This document shows positions 7,994-41,707 of a DNA stretch of 64,000 nt, in pieces. Numbering within the stretch: position 1 is the stretch's first letter; each line of letters opens with the position of its first letter. The notes beneath the pieces were generated by a model, which saw nothing but the letters and a program-made list of their open reading frames with translations, was not told the origin of the DNA and ran no database searches. The DNA lies in NCBI RefSeq assembly GCF_000004825.1, contig NW_008805091.1, forward strand, positions 62,001 through 126,000, read 5' to 3'. Source of the stretch: Heterostelium album PN500. Its lineage: Eukaryota > Evosea > Eumycetozoa > Acytosteliales > Acytosteliaceae. The position numbers and the translations under genes were made by a program.

Positions 7994-8588
7994 CATTTTT
8001 TTATCAAAAAAATAAAATAAAATAAAAAAATTTAACTTTTAAAAATGCTTTTGGAGTCTAAGTCCTTTATTGTTAAAATATATATTAATTTTATTCTATA
8101 TCACTTAAAATTTGTTGTTACTTTCATCACTATCGTAGTCAGAATTTCTCGATAACAAAAATTATCAAACAAATTCTTTTTACACAGATATTTAAGGAAA
8201 TGATGAAAAAAGATTTTTATTTTTTGTAAAACATTAAAATAAATTTTATTTAAATACATGTGATATTTATTTTAGTGCAAAAGACAATTGTGATTTTTTA
8301 GTCTTGGAAATAAAAGAAAATGAAAATCACTATTTATTTTTGTAAGATCTGCAAAAAAATGATATTTTATAAAATTATCTCATTTTTACACTTTTTTGTT
8401 AAACCCAAACCTATTTTATTTTAGGGTGCCATCTTAATACCAAAACAAAGATTTTTAGTAATTTCTAATTCAAATAAAAAACATATTTTTGTCTTGGAAA
8501 AATATCTTGTTTTTTACACTATTTATAAAATGATAAATCATAAAAACTAAAACAAATTCATCTTCATCCAGTACCATCAAATACAAAG
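7994..8588. other. Intergenic, 0.6 kb
   Basis: AT-rich spacer between two + strand genes, holding the 3' end of the MATH gene and the promoter of the FN3-like gene. No gene, repeat or RNA recognised. Confidence 0.6.
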
Positions 8589-10270
8589 ATGAACCAAAAA
8601 TTATTTATTTATTTTATATTATTAGTATTATCCTTTTCTTCTCTTAAAAAAGCAGATGGTAAAGATACAAATTATTTATTAATAAAATCTAGATTTAAAT
8701 CTTAAAAAATTAATTTCTTTTTTTTTATTAAATTTATTATAGCAGCAGAACCACTTTCTAGACCAACAGCAGATTTGTTAAATTCCACAGCCACTACTCT
8801 GACAATTCTTGTTAATTCCACAGGAGGAACACCTAACGTTGCCACTCTCTATAATGTTACTACTTATGGAAAGATCTATTGTACTTCAACATCCAATATT
8901 TGTAAAATCATCGGATTGGAGCCATCAACTTTAGTTATTCTCACAGTCACTGCTACCAACAGTGGTCAAATACAAATTGGTAGTGGAGCATTCAGAACTT
9001 TGAGTGCCTATACCATAGTTTCACTCAATTCCTATGACCTTTCTCTGCCGAATATCAATGTTTTAAATCTACTCTACCACACTCTATGGGAAGTTCCAGG
9101 ATTGGTGACCTATACCATGAGAGTCAACGATACAATAATACCGCTTTGCACCTCAGTATCCAACCCAGGTTTCTGCTACCAATATCCTAAACCATCGGAT
9201 AAAGGATATTTTCAAATCATCAATTTGCAACCGAGTACCATTTACCTTGTTAATATCACCGGTGATAGCGAAGGAACTGTTAGTTCAAAGTCAAAGATTT
9301 TCCAGACATTGGAGCCAATCAAAGTGACTTTTATTTATTCTCAAAAAGAAACCAATCATAGTCTTGAAGTTGGTTACAGTACCAACTTTCCTCGTTTCAG
9401 TAGTGACATTCGTTTTACAGTATTTTTAAATAACAGCGTGGTTGTTCCATGTTCAAATTTTGTAAATACAACATGTTTAATTGACAACTTGACACGTGAA
9501 ACTGCCTATGAAGTAAAGGTCGTTGCCACTCTACAGAATACCGAGAGTACATTGTCTGACGTTTTCCTAACAACACCAAATCCAGTTGTTATCATTTCAT
9601 ATGCTGAGTTTAGTAAAACAACCAAGTTAATCAATGTAACCTATGATGCCACCCATCAATATGAAAATATAGTAAAGACCTATAGTCTATCATTGAATGG
9701 AAATGCAGTCCAAGGTTGCCAGCAGATTAAACAAAATTATTGTACAATCGGTGTATTACCAAATACCACATACTATGTACAACTAACAGCTTTTGCAGAT
9801 GGAACCAACGCCACTCAAAATGAATATGTTACAACTTATCCATCGGTTACAGAACCAATTATCTATGTAACCACTGCCAATAAGTCATTGTGGATTCAAT
9901 TTAAATCTGATAATGGGGTTCCATTGCAGTCACTCTACAATGTATCGGTAGATGGCGTTCTTGTTCCCTCATGTATCAATACTAATCTTAGGGAATGCTG
10001 GTACCCAGGATATATAGTTACAAACATGTACAAAATTGATGTTAGTGTTTCCAATGATGGAACTTTAAAGAGCTCATCAACTAAATTCAGTCCAACCAGT
10101 GCCAATATTTCAAGTAAGTATTTTATTTTGAAACTATGTATTTGTTTTTAAAAGTCTAACAAATTTTTTTGAACAACCATATAGCAACAGGATTAAATGA
10201 AGGTTCAAAGTTGAAACAATTTTCATATGCAATCTTTGTATTATTATTAATATTACAATTTTTATTATAA
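8589..10270 (+). CDS. Secreted, probably GPI-anchored protein with five FN3-like repeats
   Basis: Three exons: 8589-8658, 8743-10113, 10185-10270; 508 residues. Exon 1 encodes a signal peptide (MNQKLFIYFILLVLSFSS). The body is five repeats of about 90 residues, each with a short Cys loop of C-x(5-8)-C (for example CTSTSNIC, CSNFVNTTC and CINTNLREC), a beta-rich pattern and many N-glycosylation sequons. These resemble fibronectin-III or Ig-like modules of cell-surface proteins. The last exon gives a small-residue site and a hydrophobic tail ending ILQFLL, typical of a GPI-anchor signal. The acceptors at 8743 and 10185 each have a nearby alternative AG, so a residue or two may vary. No specific family name recognised. 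Likely surface adhesion or recognition, by inference only. Confidence 0.82.
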
Positions 10271-33800: not shown

Positions 33801-36800
33801 CAGAGTTTCAGCCGATTGGTTAGTCTCTTCAACAATGCATCCATTCTACCAAAAAGTTTCAGTCGATCCAATTTACAATACTTTTGACATTGACGTAGTT
33901 ATCCCCGCCAATACAAACCATGGTCCATATTCAATTCATCTAACTGGAAACAGTGTAAATGATATATCATTAAATAATTATTATTCATCTATTGGTAAGT
34001 TGATTATTAAATTGATAAATTAATTACTATTAATAACCATTAAATTATTATTTTTTAGATATTTTAATTGCAGATCCAAGAATTCCAACTGGAAAATTAG
34101 ATATTTCATATGGTGGTACTTTTATTCCATTTGTTGAAGGATCTGCTTTAAATGTTGATATCAATATGACCACTACCAATTATTTGGGTGTTGGATTAAG
34201 TAACCAAAATGTAACATTGACCTATGATTATGTTGAGAATTTCTATGATAAAGGTTACTCTAATTTCACTAGAAGCGTTGTCAATGTCATTACTAATGCA
34301 GATGGTCGTAATGTTGCAAGCATCAAATTCCAACCGGGTGTTGTTAGAGATGGTGATAAATTCTCATTCTCTGCACAATATTTGGATAGTACCAGAAGTC
34401 TAGTAGAGTCCAAGGTTATCTCACTCTACTTCCTAAAGAGTGAATACGGTTTCAATATGAGAGTTGCACCATTCATCTCTTCCAACATTGTTCCAGGTGT
34501 TCCACAAGGTATTTTCGCCGATCTCATTCATATCCCAACTGGTGAACCAGTTGTAAATACCTCGATTACCCTCCAAATCTCACCGTCGAAACCGATTACC
34601 AAGATATCCAACTATGAAGAAGTAAACATGGGTCAATACGTTGAGAATATCTATCAGTTGGAGCAATACGAGCAACAGGAGCGCATTGAAAATACCGATG
34701 GTCACACTGCTTCTTTCAAACAACTCATTAAAAAGAGAAAGTTGAACACTCAGTATTTCTGTCAGTTTGAATCGACCGACAGCGATAAGACTCCACCATG
34801 TAGTTTCACTCTCCCTCATTCTGGACTCTATGTTATCACTGCTCGTGCCAGCGTAAACTCTCAGATTGTCACCAGTGCACTCAAAGTTGGCAATGACCAA
34901 GACTATTGGGAGAATAACTATTTCGCACCACACAACCAAATGACTTTATACACAGACAAGTCACAATACATCGAAGGTGAATCACCACAGCTAACCTATT
35001 TCAATCCATTCAAACAAGGAAGATTCATGATTCAATGGGGATGTGATGCTCATTTGGATACCAAACAAATTACCGCCACCTATGGTATTGGTACCATTGA
35101 ATTGGAAATCAATTCAAAATGTGCAGATTCCTATTTCCACATTGATATGATTGGACATGGTTCAAGATTGGGTTACTCTATTCCAGCAGAGATTAGAATT
35201 TCCCCACAGGTCAGTCTGAGTGCACCATCAACTTGTCAAGGTACTACAGGTACCATTGTTACACGTCGTCCAACTCTTGGTGTATCAATCGATCTTTCCA
35301 ACTCCATCGTTAAACCAAACTCTGAAACTCAATTTAGCATCTATCTTCGTAATAGAGATGGATCATCCTACTCTGGTGAAGCCGAAGCATGTATCATGGT
35401 GGTTGATCAAAGAAATTTGGATTTGGTTCCACACCCAATGTCCAATGGTGATGGATTGAAACCAGATACCAGTTACATTCAAATGTTTATCGATTCGAGA
35501 ATCCAAATTGTATGTCGCTACTTAAGTGAATTCAAGATCATGTTGAATCGTTTGAAGCAAGATCTCTGGATTGAATCTGCTTATTGGGGTAATTTCGATC
35601 AGAATCCAAAGGACTCTCTTTATTATTCTTGGATAACATCGAGTGGTGGTTATTATTATCCATATAATCATTTCTATCCATATCCAGCACCTTTTAGTGC
35701 TACTTCTAGTTCTTCCTCTTCTGGTTCTTCCTCTACTAGTGGATTAACTGGATTTGCGGGTGGATTCCCTGGTATCCAATTCGATAATGCACTGGAAGGA
35801 GCTCGTTCACCACAAGCCTCTGCTGTCCCTAAATCCAGTGGAAACAATGGTGGAAATGATGTCATATCTAATGTTCGTACCAATTTCAGAACTACTCCAT
35901 TGTTTATTCCAAAGATCATTGTAAAGAATGGTGTTGCCACTGTCAGTTTGAAACTTCCAGATGATTTGACTACCTTCTCTATTCGTGCCTATGTTATTAC
36001 CAATTCTTCAGAGTTTACATCACAAGAGACATCCATTACCAGTAGAAAGGATCTAAATATTCTACCGATTCAACCTAGATTTGCAAGAATTGGTGATATC
36101 TTTGAATGTGGTGTTACTATTGTCGTTGGTAATCCAGCTGCCTCTACTTCCAACTTGCGATTGATTGTCAAACTTGAAGATCCATCGCTGGATATCTTGA
36201 CTGGTAGCTCAAAGGATGTATCCATCCCATCTTCAATGACATCGGTTGATGTTCTTTTCAATTTCAAAGCTATGTACAAAGGTACTTCAAAGATGATTTT
36301 CTACCTTTATCGTGGAACTGAATCATTGGACTCTGTTGAAATTAGTTTTGATGTACTAGGTCGTCAACTTCCGATCTATATCGGTACAAGTATGACTATT
36401 AGTGCCAATACAACCATTGCCGAAGGAATCAAGTTGCCATCCAGTGAACCAGGTACTGGAAGTATGGATATAGTCATTGGAGTTGGTCGTTATCCATCAA
36501 TCGAAGTGGAATGTGTTCAACTTTTATCCATTGCAGCAGAGAGAACACCATCCTCTATTGATTTACTCTCTCAACAAGTAACCTACGGTGCACTCACATC
36601 CTATGGCTACAACAAAACATTGATCAACCAATCACAAGAAGCATTGAAACAAATGGTTGATAGTATTGATTCTTATATTGGTAGATATTTAAATTATTAT
36701 CCAGATGAATCAAGTAACTACTATCCAACACTATACGCTATTGTATTAAAGAATTTAATGGAACAATCAAATATCGATGGATGGACACTCATTCATAGAA

Positions 36801-38050
36801 ATCTTTCAGATTGGGTCAATTATATCGATAACTATTTGAATGATGAGGTATCACAAGCTCATCGTTTAAATACATCTATCGATAAGGAGCTGATTGGATA
36901 TGCATCGATTGGTCTTGGTTATTATTGGGCACCATCAGAAGAGGATCTAGATGAACTCTACAGTTGGAATGCGCTCACCGCCAACATCACCGATAATTGT
37001 TCCCTCCTTTGTCAAACCTACTTTATGATTGCAGCGTTGATTCGTGGTGAATCCAACTTGCCATTCATCAATATTGTAATTCACAATATCGAGAATAATA
37101 TCCGTATTCAAGGTAGAACTGCTTATGTTACCTATGGTGCTGGTAGTAGTCAATCCAGTTTGGAGCTGACAACCTATGCCTCGATTGCATTTATTATGGC
37201 AAACCACCAAACCCCAATGTTGGAGAAAATGATCAATTTCATCGGAACCGGTGGTATTATCCCTACATTTGATTTCTTTAACTACTATCGTGGTGGACAA
37301 TCAAGTGAACAACTTGCACTCTCTATTATTGCCATGACCTACTATGACAAATCAACTAGATCTACCAGACCGAACCTCTCACTCCTCGCATACCAAGACA
37401 CACCATCTCACCCAATTCTCAGTGCCAAATTCAATGAAAACAACACTCAGAGCATTGCTAGAACCATTCAATTCGGAGTACTCGGAGACAATGAAGGTAA
37501 AATACTTTTCAATGCCAATGGAACCGGTGAAATTTCCGCATCGATCGGAATCAACTATGTCCCAACAACACTACCAACCAAACCAATATTCCACGGTTTC
37601 TATGTAGAGAAGATCATTAAAGTACTGAATCCCTCTGGAAATACCAGTACTGTCACTGATAACACCTTCCAAGTTGGTCAGCTCGTTCAAGTTACCATCT
37701 CAATCACTACACCCGATGACATTGGAGTTGTCTACATAGAGGATGGTATCTCTGCAGGAATCGAACCACTCGATAACAATATCTACGATTTAGCAACAAC
37801 TACAAACACTTTTGATACTAACTATCAAAGATTCCGTTATTGGATCTACAAACCATTCTCCTATCGTGAAACCAAACGTGATGTTGTCATTTTCCACGGA
37901 ACCAATATCATTGCTGGTAGTTACACAGTTACCTATAACGCAGTTACAACTATTCGTGGTAAATTCACACTACCACCAACCAAAGTATATTCATCGAAAC
38001 AACCTGAAGTATTTGGTTTATCTGCAGGTCTCGTATTTAATGTTAAATAG
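30811..38050 (+). CDS. Membrane-anchored alpha-2-macroglobulin family protein
   Basis: Exons: 30811-31997, 32068-32242, 32305-32452, 32832-33449, 33514-33994, 34059-38050; about 2199 residues. An N-terminal hydrophobic segment (RLLGLFLCMFVISAFSIIYF) would act as a signal anchor. An Asn run and a PSPT repeat stalk follow, then macroglobulin-type beta domains. A Tyr/Pro/Ser/Gly-rich, bait-like loop is coded near 35640-35830. The A2M core (ATVSLKLPDDLTTFSIRAYV) is at about 35930-36140 and a helical complement-like region comes after. The usual CxEQ thioester is not seen; the matching segment reads VECVQLLSIAAERTPSSIDL. The overall layout resembles the bacterial-type macroglobulins, which trap proteases. 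Exon 2 holds a frame break: its first half fits one frame and its second half, ISIRFNGLYPFVFPFQ, the next. One extra A in AAAAA at about 32151-32155 would explain it. Confidence 0.85.
31227..31332 (+). repeat. Coding 12-bp tandem repeat (Pro-Ser-Pro-Thr)
   Basis: Tandem copies of CCAACACCATCT encode a PSPT stalk in the macroglobulin-like protein, just after its signal anchor and Asn run. Such Pro/Thr stalks are commonly O-glycosylated and hold domains away from the membrane. Copy number is likely variable between strains. Confidence 0.85.
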
Positions 38051-38549: not shown

Positions 38550-40416
38550 ATGAAATTATTTAATATTGTATTATTGTTATCTATTGTTGTAAGTAAAATT
38601 ATTTTCTCTAAAGATTCTGTAAATCATTAACATTTTTATAAATAAACTATCATATGTTGTACACACATTGTTTAGTGCTTGGCTTCAGCAGGTACCCGTC
38701 ATTATCAAAAGAATGTTGGAGCTGCTAAATCATGGTCTGGTTATTATAATGTAAACCAAACTACTGATGCCAACCTTTTCTATTGGTTCTTTGAATCTCA
38801 AGGTAACCCCGCTACCGATCCATTCATTATCTGGTTGACAGGTGGACCAGGTTGCAGTTCGGAGCTCGCCATCTTTTATGAGAATGGACCATTCCATTTA
38901 ACCGATAACCTTCAATTGACACCAAATCCATATTCATGGAACACTGTTGCCAATGTTTTGTACGTCGATTCACCAGTCGGTACTGGTTTCAGTTATGTCA
39001 GTGATCCAAATGGTTATTCCACCGACGAAGATGAGGTCGCTGAGAACCTCTACCGTATGCTTAGCCAGTTCATGAATGACAACTCACAGTTTGCCAATTT
39101 ACCATTCTATATTTTTGGTGAGTCTTATGCCGGTCATTACGTTCCAGCTCTCGCATACTACATGTACGTCAAGAACCAAGATCCATTTTCCACTCATTTC
39201 AACCTCAAGGGTATTGCTGTTGGTAATGCCATGGTAGATCCATTAGTCCAATATGGTTCTTTGGGTCCATTCGCCTTTGCCCATGGTTTAATCGGACCAT
39301 TGGCACTCAAAGAGACCGAAGGATTGTATGCTTCATGTGTTGATGCCATTAACTCTGGAAGTTACAACGACAGTAACACCATCTGTAACGAGATTATGAA
39401 CGTCATTCAAGAGTATGCCGGTCCATTCAACCCATATGATGTTCGTTTAACCTGTCCACCATCACTCCCACTTTGCTACAACTTCACCTTGGCCACCGAA
39501 TACTTGTCATTGCCATCTGTTCGTCAACAACTTGGTGTTCCAGCAAACGCTTCATGGCAATTATGCAGCAGCACCGTCTATGCTGATATCATCAATGACT
39601 GGTGGAATACTGAAGTCGAGCATATCCCAGTATTATTGCAAGCAGGTATCAAGACTTTGGTCTACAATGGAAATATGGGTTGGATCTGTAACTACTTGGG
39701 TTCACAAGCTTGGGTTTCTCAATTGGACTGGCCAAACAACCAACAATGGAATAATGCTCCAAGAAAGATTGTTATGAATGGACAAGACATTGGTGGTTAC
39801 ACACAATCATATGGTGGATTGACACTTATGTCCGTAAACAATGCCGGTAATTATTGAATATTCATTCGTAATTCAAATTAATTATTTTATTAATCAAATT
39901 TTTTTTTAATTTTCTCAATTTTCACCTTGTGTTTTATCTCGAAATAACAATAACTTCCAAAAAAAACTTCATAAATCGATTGAACAAATGTCTGACAACT
40001 ATTAACGATAAAATTTCAACTAACAATCAGGCCACATGGTAATTATTAAACATAAATTCAGAATTAAAATTAATTATTTTATTAATCAAAATTTTTTTTT
40101 ATAATTTCAATTTTTCACATTGTTCTTTTATTTATCTCGAAATAATTCAACAATCCAACTTCACCTTGGTCCATTTCAATTAAAATACAACTTGATATAT
40201 TATTGATCAACCTTAATTCGCCAATCCAAACTTAATTTGGATACAATCAAATATTTTTTCCAACAAAACTTCCAAAACAAAACTTCAACTTATAAATCGA
40301 TTGAACAAATGTCTGGCAACTATTAACGATAAAATTTCAACTAATAATAGAGTCCTATGGATGCTCCTCAGGTTGTTTTAAATATGGTAATCGATTTCAT
40401 TACCAACAAGTTCTAA
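38550..40416 (+). CDS. Secreted serine carboxypeptidase (S10) with an 8-nt micro-exon
   Basis: Exons: 38550-38588, 38676-39846, 40031-40038, 40351-40416; 427 residues. A signal peptide ([18 protein letters not shown]) precedes a peptidase S10 fold. Landmarks are [22 protein letters not shown] and the nucleophile elbow GESYAGHY (Ser about 163). Exon 2 alone would end at NNAGNY, short of the catalytic histidine. Splicing in GCCACATG and the last exon gives [18 protein letters not shown], the expected GHM-x-P-M-D-x-P motif (His about 405), and a normal family length. The usual active-site Asp region GDxDxxCN reads GNMGWICN, so the Asp position appears to be Gly about 348. Activity is therefore uncertain. 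The two introns flanking the micro-exon are related copies. A lysosomal or secreted location is inferred from the signal peptide. Confidence 0.85.
39847..40030 (+). repeat. Duplicated intron, copy 1
   Basis: The 184-bp intron before the micro-exon shares its 5' part (GTAATTATT and ATTAATTATTTTATTAATCA) and 3' part (AAATCGATTGAACAAATGTC, then CAACTATTAACGATAAAATT) with the intron at 40039-40350. The pair looks like an intragenic tandem duplication. Confidence 0.85.
40039..40350 (+). repeat. Duplicated intron, copy 2 with extra middle segment
   Basis: The 312-bp intron after the micro-exon is homologous to 39847-40030 at both ends. It carries about 120 extra bases in the middle (roughly 40150-40265). 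Small differences throughout show that the duplication is not recent or has drifted. Confidence 0.85.
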
Positions 40417-40778
40417 ATATACTTAAATAAATAAATAAATAGATATTATTAAATATAAATACAAGTTATTTGATATAATGATAGTGCTTTTGATTATATT
40501 TTTTAAATATTCAAAAGACCATCTTTGGCACATAGCTTGACGAAATGTTTTGCTGTTGAATGAGTTACACATTGATGTTGGCCCTTCACTTATCTTCTTG
40601 AAATCTATTATTTTCTACAATTTCTATATCATTTTTTTCAATTTTGGAAAGAGATAAATTTTTTAAACTATCATCTATTTTCTAAGAAAAACTAGTTTTT
40701 ATTTTATTTATTTTTTAGTTTTCTAAATATTTATATATAGAAAGAATCTTAAAAGTTAAATTCCCAAAAATAGAAAAT
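40417..40778. other. Convergent spacer, 0.36 kb
   Basis: AT-rich stretch between the 3' ends of the carboxypeptidase (+) and CBM49 (-) genes. Presumably both 3' untranslated regions. Nothing else seen. Confidence 0.55.
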
Positions 40779-41707
40779 CTAATAAGTTGATGATGATTGA
40801 ATGGTGAATTTTGGCTGAGTAGATGATTTGGTGATATATCCAAAAGTGAATACTTGACCAACACCAATACCAGCCCAAGATGGTAAAGTTAACCAACCAT
40901 TCTCAAGAGATTCGACATTCCATTTATCGGTTGGTTCAAAGTTTTCATGTGAGAAAATGATATTCTTTATGGCAACTGGACCGTCATTCTTGATATCAAC
41001 ATTGTATTGCATGTATCTTTCATTTCCAACAAACCACGAACTAATTAGAGTGAATGAGAATGAAAGAGTATTTGGTGATCCTGTTGTTGAAGTAGTGGTA
41101 GAGGTAGTAGAAGATCCAGTTGTTGATGTTGATGATCCAGTTGTTGAGGTATCAGAACAATTCTCACCAAAATGAAGTGGTTTACATTGATCACTAATTC
41201 TTAACTATTATTTTTATGTAAAAATATTAATAATTAAATATGAAAATAAATTTATTTTTAGTAAGTGCTTACCAAAAATGATAAACGAATATTATCATGT
41301 GCAAAATGGATAATATTTCCCAATTCTTCGAAACATCTCATGTTGTACATGTTATCATCGGCTCTGATAGATCCATTGGAATAAAGGTTAAATACTCCAA
41401 ATGAACCGGAATCCTGAACCAAGAACGGTTGATATCTATTGTGAGAATCACAAGAATACTTGTCACTGGCAAGGAATATCACTTTACTTTGATCTTGCAT
41501 TAAAACACCATTGTTATTAACCATATTTCCTTTGAAACTTAAATGAACACCGCCTGGAGTCAATCCATTTCCAACGATTGTAACACACTTGCTTGTACAT
41601 CCAGTATTATCAAAGGCATTCCTAATGACTGTTTTACAATCAATTTCAGCACCAATTGACATACCAATAAAAATTATTGTTAAAACCAAGATTTGAATAT
41701 CCATCAT
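40779..41707 (-). CDS. Secreted protein with C-terminal CBM49 cellulose-binding domain
   Basis: Two exons on the minus strand: 41707-41273 and 41204-40779; 286 residues. A signal peptide (MMDIQILVLTIIFIGMSIGA) is followed by a Cys-containing domain of about 135 residues that I do not recognise. A Thr/Ser/Gly linker with repeated STTGS units comes next. The C-terminal module of about 90 residues contains WFVGNERYMQYNVDIKNDG and LENGWLTLPSW, which fits CBM49, the carbohydrate-binding domain common in dictyostelid cellulose-matrix proteins. A role in the extracellular cellulose matrix of stalk or spore coat is inferred from that domain. Exon 2 starts at 41204, which keeps frame and gives LRISDQCKPLHF. 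Confidence 0.85.

Follow-up and report, generated by a model that had tools for sequence, protein, structure and literature searches.

An 8-nucleotide exon between two related introns in a Heterostelium album serine-carboxypeptidase homologue, and its probable origin by intron copying

The DNA analysed here is a 64,000-nucleotide (nt) stretch of the Heterostelium album PN500 genome (contig NW_008805091.1, positions 62,001 to 126,000), referred to below as the window and numbered from its first base. Its plus strand carries a gene at 38550-40416 whose spliced coding sequence specifies 427 amino acids in a frame that stays intact over 427 codons, and whose product is, by its predicted sequence, an S10 serine-carboxypeptidase homologue (PF00450). 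The histidine motif of this protein is completed by a micro-exon of 8 nt lying between two introns, A and B, that resemble each other from donor to acceptor. We consider it probable that the micro-exon was made when intron A was copied 8 nt downstream, the likeliest way being a tandem duplication, and that the two introns are spliced sequentially. The parts of the gene model are as follows.

38550 to 38588, plus strand: exon 1, 13 codons, putatively signal-peptide-like, joined in frame to exon 2; donor GTAAGT
38589 to 38675, plus strand: intron 1, 87 nt, GTAAGT...TTTAG
38676 to 39846, plus strand: exon 2, the bulk of the S10 domain, with the Ser163 codon at 39123 and the Gly348 codon at 39678
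39847 to 40030, plus strand: intron A, 184 nt, in site and phase the same as the last intron of paralogue L006
40031 to 40038, plus strand: micro-exon, 8 nt, GCCACATG, which finishes a Gly codon and then encodes His-Met
40039 to 40350, plus strand: intron B, 312 nt, a donor-to-acceptor copy of intron A
40149 to 40261, plus strand: segment found in intron B only, bounded by AACAA, without a counterpart in intron A and likely deleted there
40351 to 40416, plus strand: last exon, stop codon TAA

Exon 2 ends at 39846 with ..AAC AAT GCC G, the AG acceptor of intron A lies at 40029-40030, and the micro-exon GCCACATG is followed directly by a GTAATT donor from 40039 and, at the far end of intron B, by an AG acceptor at 40349-40350. 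A sequence-only reading of this DNA had placed a micro-exon at 40031-40038, and both these coordinates and the phase were borne out, with canonical GT-AG introns on both sides and the frame preserved. The same reading had held that the frame, if unspliced, ends in NNAGNY, and that the 8 nt restore the missing histidine motif. Both points agree with what we found: read-through past the donor of intron A gives NNAGNY and then a TGA at 39855-39857, and inclusion of 40031-40038 yields GHMSPMDAPQ, with which the match to the Peptidase_S10 profile is completed (387.8 bits, profile positions 9-420 of 420). The score is 357.5 bits (positions 9-398) when the micro-exon is skipped, which leaves a frameshifted tail of 26 amino acids lacking the histidine motif, and 371.6 bits (positions 9-402) when intron B is retained. 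When a 504-nt stretch was scanned, with its outermost 30-60 bases excluded, the exon encoding GHM was the sole AG..GT exon of 1-59 nt in the right phase. The exact 8-nt G-H-M exon was seen in 0 of 10,000 dinucleotide shuffles of this stretch, and any in-frame exon of at most 32 nt containing GH in 32 of 10,000. A longer micro-exon extending into intron B was rejected, since its frame hits a stop before the next GT. Transcripts that include the micro-exon are predicted to carry the junction GCCGGCCACATGAGTCC. An Rfam search of 39700-40500 gave no match up to an E value of 1, and folding of the exon-intron stretch revealed no special RNA structure (z +1.05).

The relationship between the two introns was evident from a direct-repeat search of 39700-40500, which returned five families, four of them pairing intron A with intron B. 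These comprise a 77-nt repeat of 84% identity at the donors (39846 versus 40038), a 57-nt repeat of 96% identity near the acceptors (39971 versus 40292), a 26-nt repeat of 77% identity and an identical 15-mer; the fifth family, 19 nt at 89% between intron B and the 3′ flank, gauges the chance level in such AT-rich sequence. Global alignment of A with B scored 219, and 500 shuffles gave a mean of 26, a standard deviation of 9 and a maximum of 56.5, so that chance resemblance of AT-rich introns was rejected. In this alignment 166 of 183 columns are identical, a figure for which the ungapped blocks are the safer measure because the middle of the alignment is gap-rich. Both introns have a GTAATT donor and a branch-like TTAAC site 25-26 nt before the AG. 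Homology extends from the donors, together with one shared exonic G, to the acceptors; the flanking exon bases are dissimilar, and no flanking exon is duplicated alongside the introns. Intron gain by tandem duplication of an exonic AGGT was rejected on the ground that both ends of intron B match intron A, not exon, and a stwintron, in which introns are nested with no exon between them, because 8 coding nt separate A from B. Genome searches with A and with B, in which very common words were skipped, matched only these two places, and an introner-like element present in many copies across genes was rejected accordingly.

Since the evidence for the pair is assembled sequence, an artefact in which intron A was doubled during assembly has to be weighed. 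We regard it as extremely improbable: the two introns show many mismatches and, in mid-intron, a length difference of about 113 nt, and one would not expect an assembly error to place its joins precisely at splice boundaries with in-frame codons left between them. The additional length of intron B, about 113 nt, lies in one block, and on the simplest reading of the two sequences this segment would have been deleted from A after copying. AACAA occurs in B at 40149 and 40262 and once at the matching place in A (39946); as evidence for the boundaries of the segment this is weak, because the 5-mer occurs three times in A and four times in B. Within the B-only segment, 14 bases (40156-40169) are identical to 39479-39492 in exon 2, possibly as templated filler or by chance. 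The two ends of the introns have diverged unequally, differing at 2 of 57 sites at the 3′ ends (39971-40027 versus 40292-40348) and at 12 of 76 at the 5′ ends (Fisher p 0.024); the 3′ ends may have been kept alike by conversion or constraint.

Comparison with the other S10 genes bears on which intron is the older. A genome search for S10 returned seven matches, which we read as four genes. The three paralogues, L004, L005 and L006, are 35-36% identical to the protein described here. L006, on contig C10, has an intron at its positions 2272-2383 that splits a Gly codon in the phase of intron A, with the junction GCA G|gtatgt..caag|GC CAT ATG; L004 and L005 have no intron at this site. At the site of intron B, after GHM, none of the three has an intron. 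Since L006 shares site A and site B is empty in all three paralogues, A appears to be old and B gained. Intron A was identified as the source sequence of intron B, which is most likely a gained intron derived from it. GHM is followed by Val in L004 (GTG) and L006 (GTT), as also in carboxypeptidase Y and cathepsin A; L005 has Leu at this position, and the present gene Ser. The Ser codon, AGT at 40351-40353, falls exactly at the intron B acceptor.

Of the catalytic residues, the nucleophile Ser163 is present in GESYAGH, and His405 is present and encoded by the micro-exon, in a motif whose aligned counterparts are GHMVPFD in carboxypeptidase Y and GHMVPTD in cathepsin A (among the matches listed, 2 of 19). 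The motif is likewise GHMVP in a Naegleria S10 enzyme (PMC9603766). The triad of carboxypeptidase Y consists of S146, H397 and D338 (PMC6609556), and D338 aligns to Gly348 of our protein (codon GGT at 39678-39680). Asp occupies this position in the cathepsin A alignments (best 5 of 13 matches) and in all three paralogues. The Ser-Asp-His triad is therefore incomplete even with the micro-exon. The sequence-only reading had claimed that skipping the micro-exon would remove the active site; the histidine motif is indeed lost on skipping, but with Gly already at the catalytic Asp position there is no complete triad to remove. The protein may not be an active peptidase and may instead be an S10 protein that is impaired or has taken on another role; if we may speculate, relaxed constraint would be in keeping with the Ser that follows GHM and with the gene's tolerance of so fragile a structure. 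Residue 68 (38838-38840), which precedes GGPG, is Thr here, Asn in L004, Gln in L005 and Ser in L006. Asn at this position presumably has a role in substrate binding.

It had also been proposed that so short an exon needs special recognition. This was not supported: each flanking intron has a donor, a branch-like site and an acceptor of its own, as follows from one being a copy of the other, and ordinary sequential splicing can thus explain the micro-exon, for which special recognition appears not to be needed. Introns A and B would be taken out in succession, each recognised as an ordinary intron. Since the splice signals are near-duplicates, donor A could plausibly pair with acceptor B in competition with this, which would give the frameshifted 26-amino-acid tail. 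The near-identity of donors and acceptors thus makes the locus a natural competition test between inclusion and skipping of an 8-nt exon. It also lends some weight, together with the Gly at the catalytic Asp position, to the view that the micro-exon is unused, with transcripts that skip it or retain intron A and a gene that is drifting. We think this very unlikely, given that the last exon stays in the frame of the profile only with the 8 nt, that the 427-codon frame is intact, and that shuffling never reproduced the exact exon.

The copying that we favour can be pictured as follows, and for its route we lean towards DNA rather than RNA. In an ancestral sequence reading ATG|GTN, with GTN as the Val codon seen in relatives, the GGT spanning the two codons would have matched the GGT at the donor of intron A. 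With these two GGTs as its end points, one short tandem duplication that took in intron A and the 8 nt would at once have yielded a second intron able to be spliced, and while splicing left the tiny exon out the duplicate would have done no harm. If the second, redundant 8 nt were later lost, the 8 bases caught between A and B would have become a necessary micro-exon, and the loss would have left the Ser codon (AGT) as a scar. Several points weigh against this account. The gene model and its splicing are predictions from genomic sequence, and the lack of an intron at site B is known from three paralogues of 35-36% identity, not from orthologues. The DNA route needs a second event, the loss of exactly 8 nt (plus one C), of which no intermediate was seen, and the GGT microhomology is a reconstruction based on relatives and was not itself observed. 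Moreover, with 12 of 76 differences at one end of the introns and 2 of 57 at the other, a single simple history may not hold.

Some of the same observations would fit RNA-mediated copying, in which intron A, once excised, was inserted by reverse splicing just after the ATG and ahead of the following codon, in its own transcript or in its DNA, and the product was fixed via reverse transcription or repair. We treat this as a serious though less likely alternative. Homology that runs from donor G to acceptor G, with nothing exonic duplicated beyond the one shared G, fits a precise insertion in one step. However, if the target was spliced mRNA, gene conversion must have stopped inside the 8 nt to retain intron A, so that an unspliced target or direct insertion into DNA would be needed, and the change from Val to Ser exactly at the junction is left unexplained. 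Demonstrated reverse splicing is also limited: according to a 2012 review, the spliceosome was known to reverse-splice an intron in a mutant only, and then only into its original place (PMC3443670). Intron circles have been described in Entamoeba (PMC6085484). That the intron, after being spliced out, entered its gene again 8 nt from its original site in a single precise event, as a within-gene intron transposition, is a proposal we judge unlikely; if it were true, the coexisting copies would represent an intermediate from which loss of the old copy lets an intron ‘slide’ to a new site.

A sample of 273,703 bases (G+C content 33.3%), consisting of the window, the three paralogue loci and 20 stretches of contig C10, was scanned for similar GT-AG introns with unlike flanks, other dinucleotide pairs serving as the control. 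This sample is less than 1% of the 32.9-Mb genome, and it therefore says little on how common such pairs are. The focal pair, on the plus strand of the window, passed as two rows that differ only in the last acceptor. GT-AG pairs were found in seven source-strand sets, namely the focal set, the minus strand of the window, both strands of L017, both strands of L018 and the plus strand of L020. Of the 282 rows, the first four of each set were read individually, against TRF arrays with periods of 6 or more and lengths over 100 bases. Matches listed for the window minus strand, L017 and the L020 plus strand lie on or beside such arrays; those listed at L018 (about 8540-9805) do not, and a similar-intron pair is possible there. 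The control dinucleotide pairs matched L017 and L018 in 7 of 7 cases and L020 in 6 of 7, and all six non-focal sets come from sources that control dinucleotides matched too. The focal block was itself matched once by the AT-AC control. As for neighbouring genes, the upstream open frame at 34037-38050 contains alpha-2-macroglobulin domains (A2M, bMG10), and a convergent open frame downstream on the minus strand (40779-41204) contains a Thr/Ser-rich stretch followed by a CBM49 carbohydrate-binding domain.

Micro-exons have been described before, as has intron duplication, and it is the coexistence of two copies of one intron 8 nt apart that is unusual; a literature search, made mostly without subscription papers, returned no recognised case of an intron copied a few bases away around a micro-exon. 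New introns have often been inferred while their source was seldom found, and this appears to be a rare case in which the source is adjacent. With source and copy side by side and their ends clear, rival models of intron birth give different, checkable predictions. The locus suggests that intron duplication can give rise to micro-exons, and that two introns close to each other can be present together as a stage in what looks like intron sliding.

Comparable systems share some of these features. In Cryptococcus CNN00420, intron gain by DNA repeat expansion has been described, and there, as here, the new intron copies an intron of its own gene (PMC2395259). The introns gained in CNN00420 are part of a repetitive region that holds several introns identical or nearly identical to one another, whereas in our gene the intron alone is doubled, in two copies with an 8-nt exon between them. 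As in the near intron pairs of Drosophila, the old and new sites are less than 32 nt apart (PMC2891723); here a single gene model contains both introns, and their sequences are similar. Dictyostelid intron gain has also been reported for Dictyostelium, with 98 putative gains and sources for 2 of the 98 (PMC4683709); neither of those two sources is a whole intron, whether from the same gene or from a different one. Introner-like elements and sister stwintrons resemble our case in seamless insertion and in sequence-related introns, but they occur in dozens of copies at many places (PMC8469720), compared with two copies in one gene here. Finally, plant micro-exons of 15 nt or less (PMC8831610) and the 1-nt exon of CYP621A (PMC12940212) are, like the exon described here, tiny exons required for a conserved protein motif; the origin of such an exon, not discernible for theirs in the accessible text of those papers, is legible in the Heterostelium gene.
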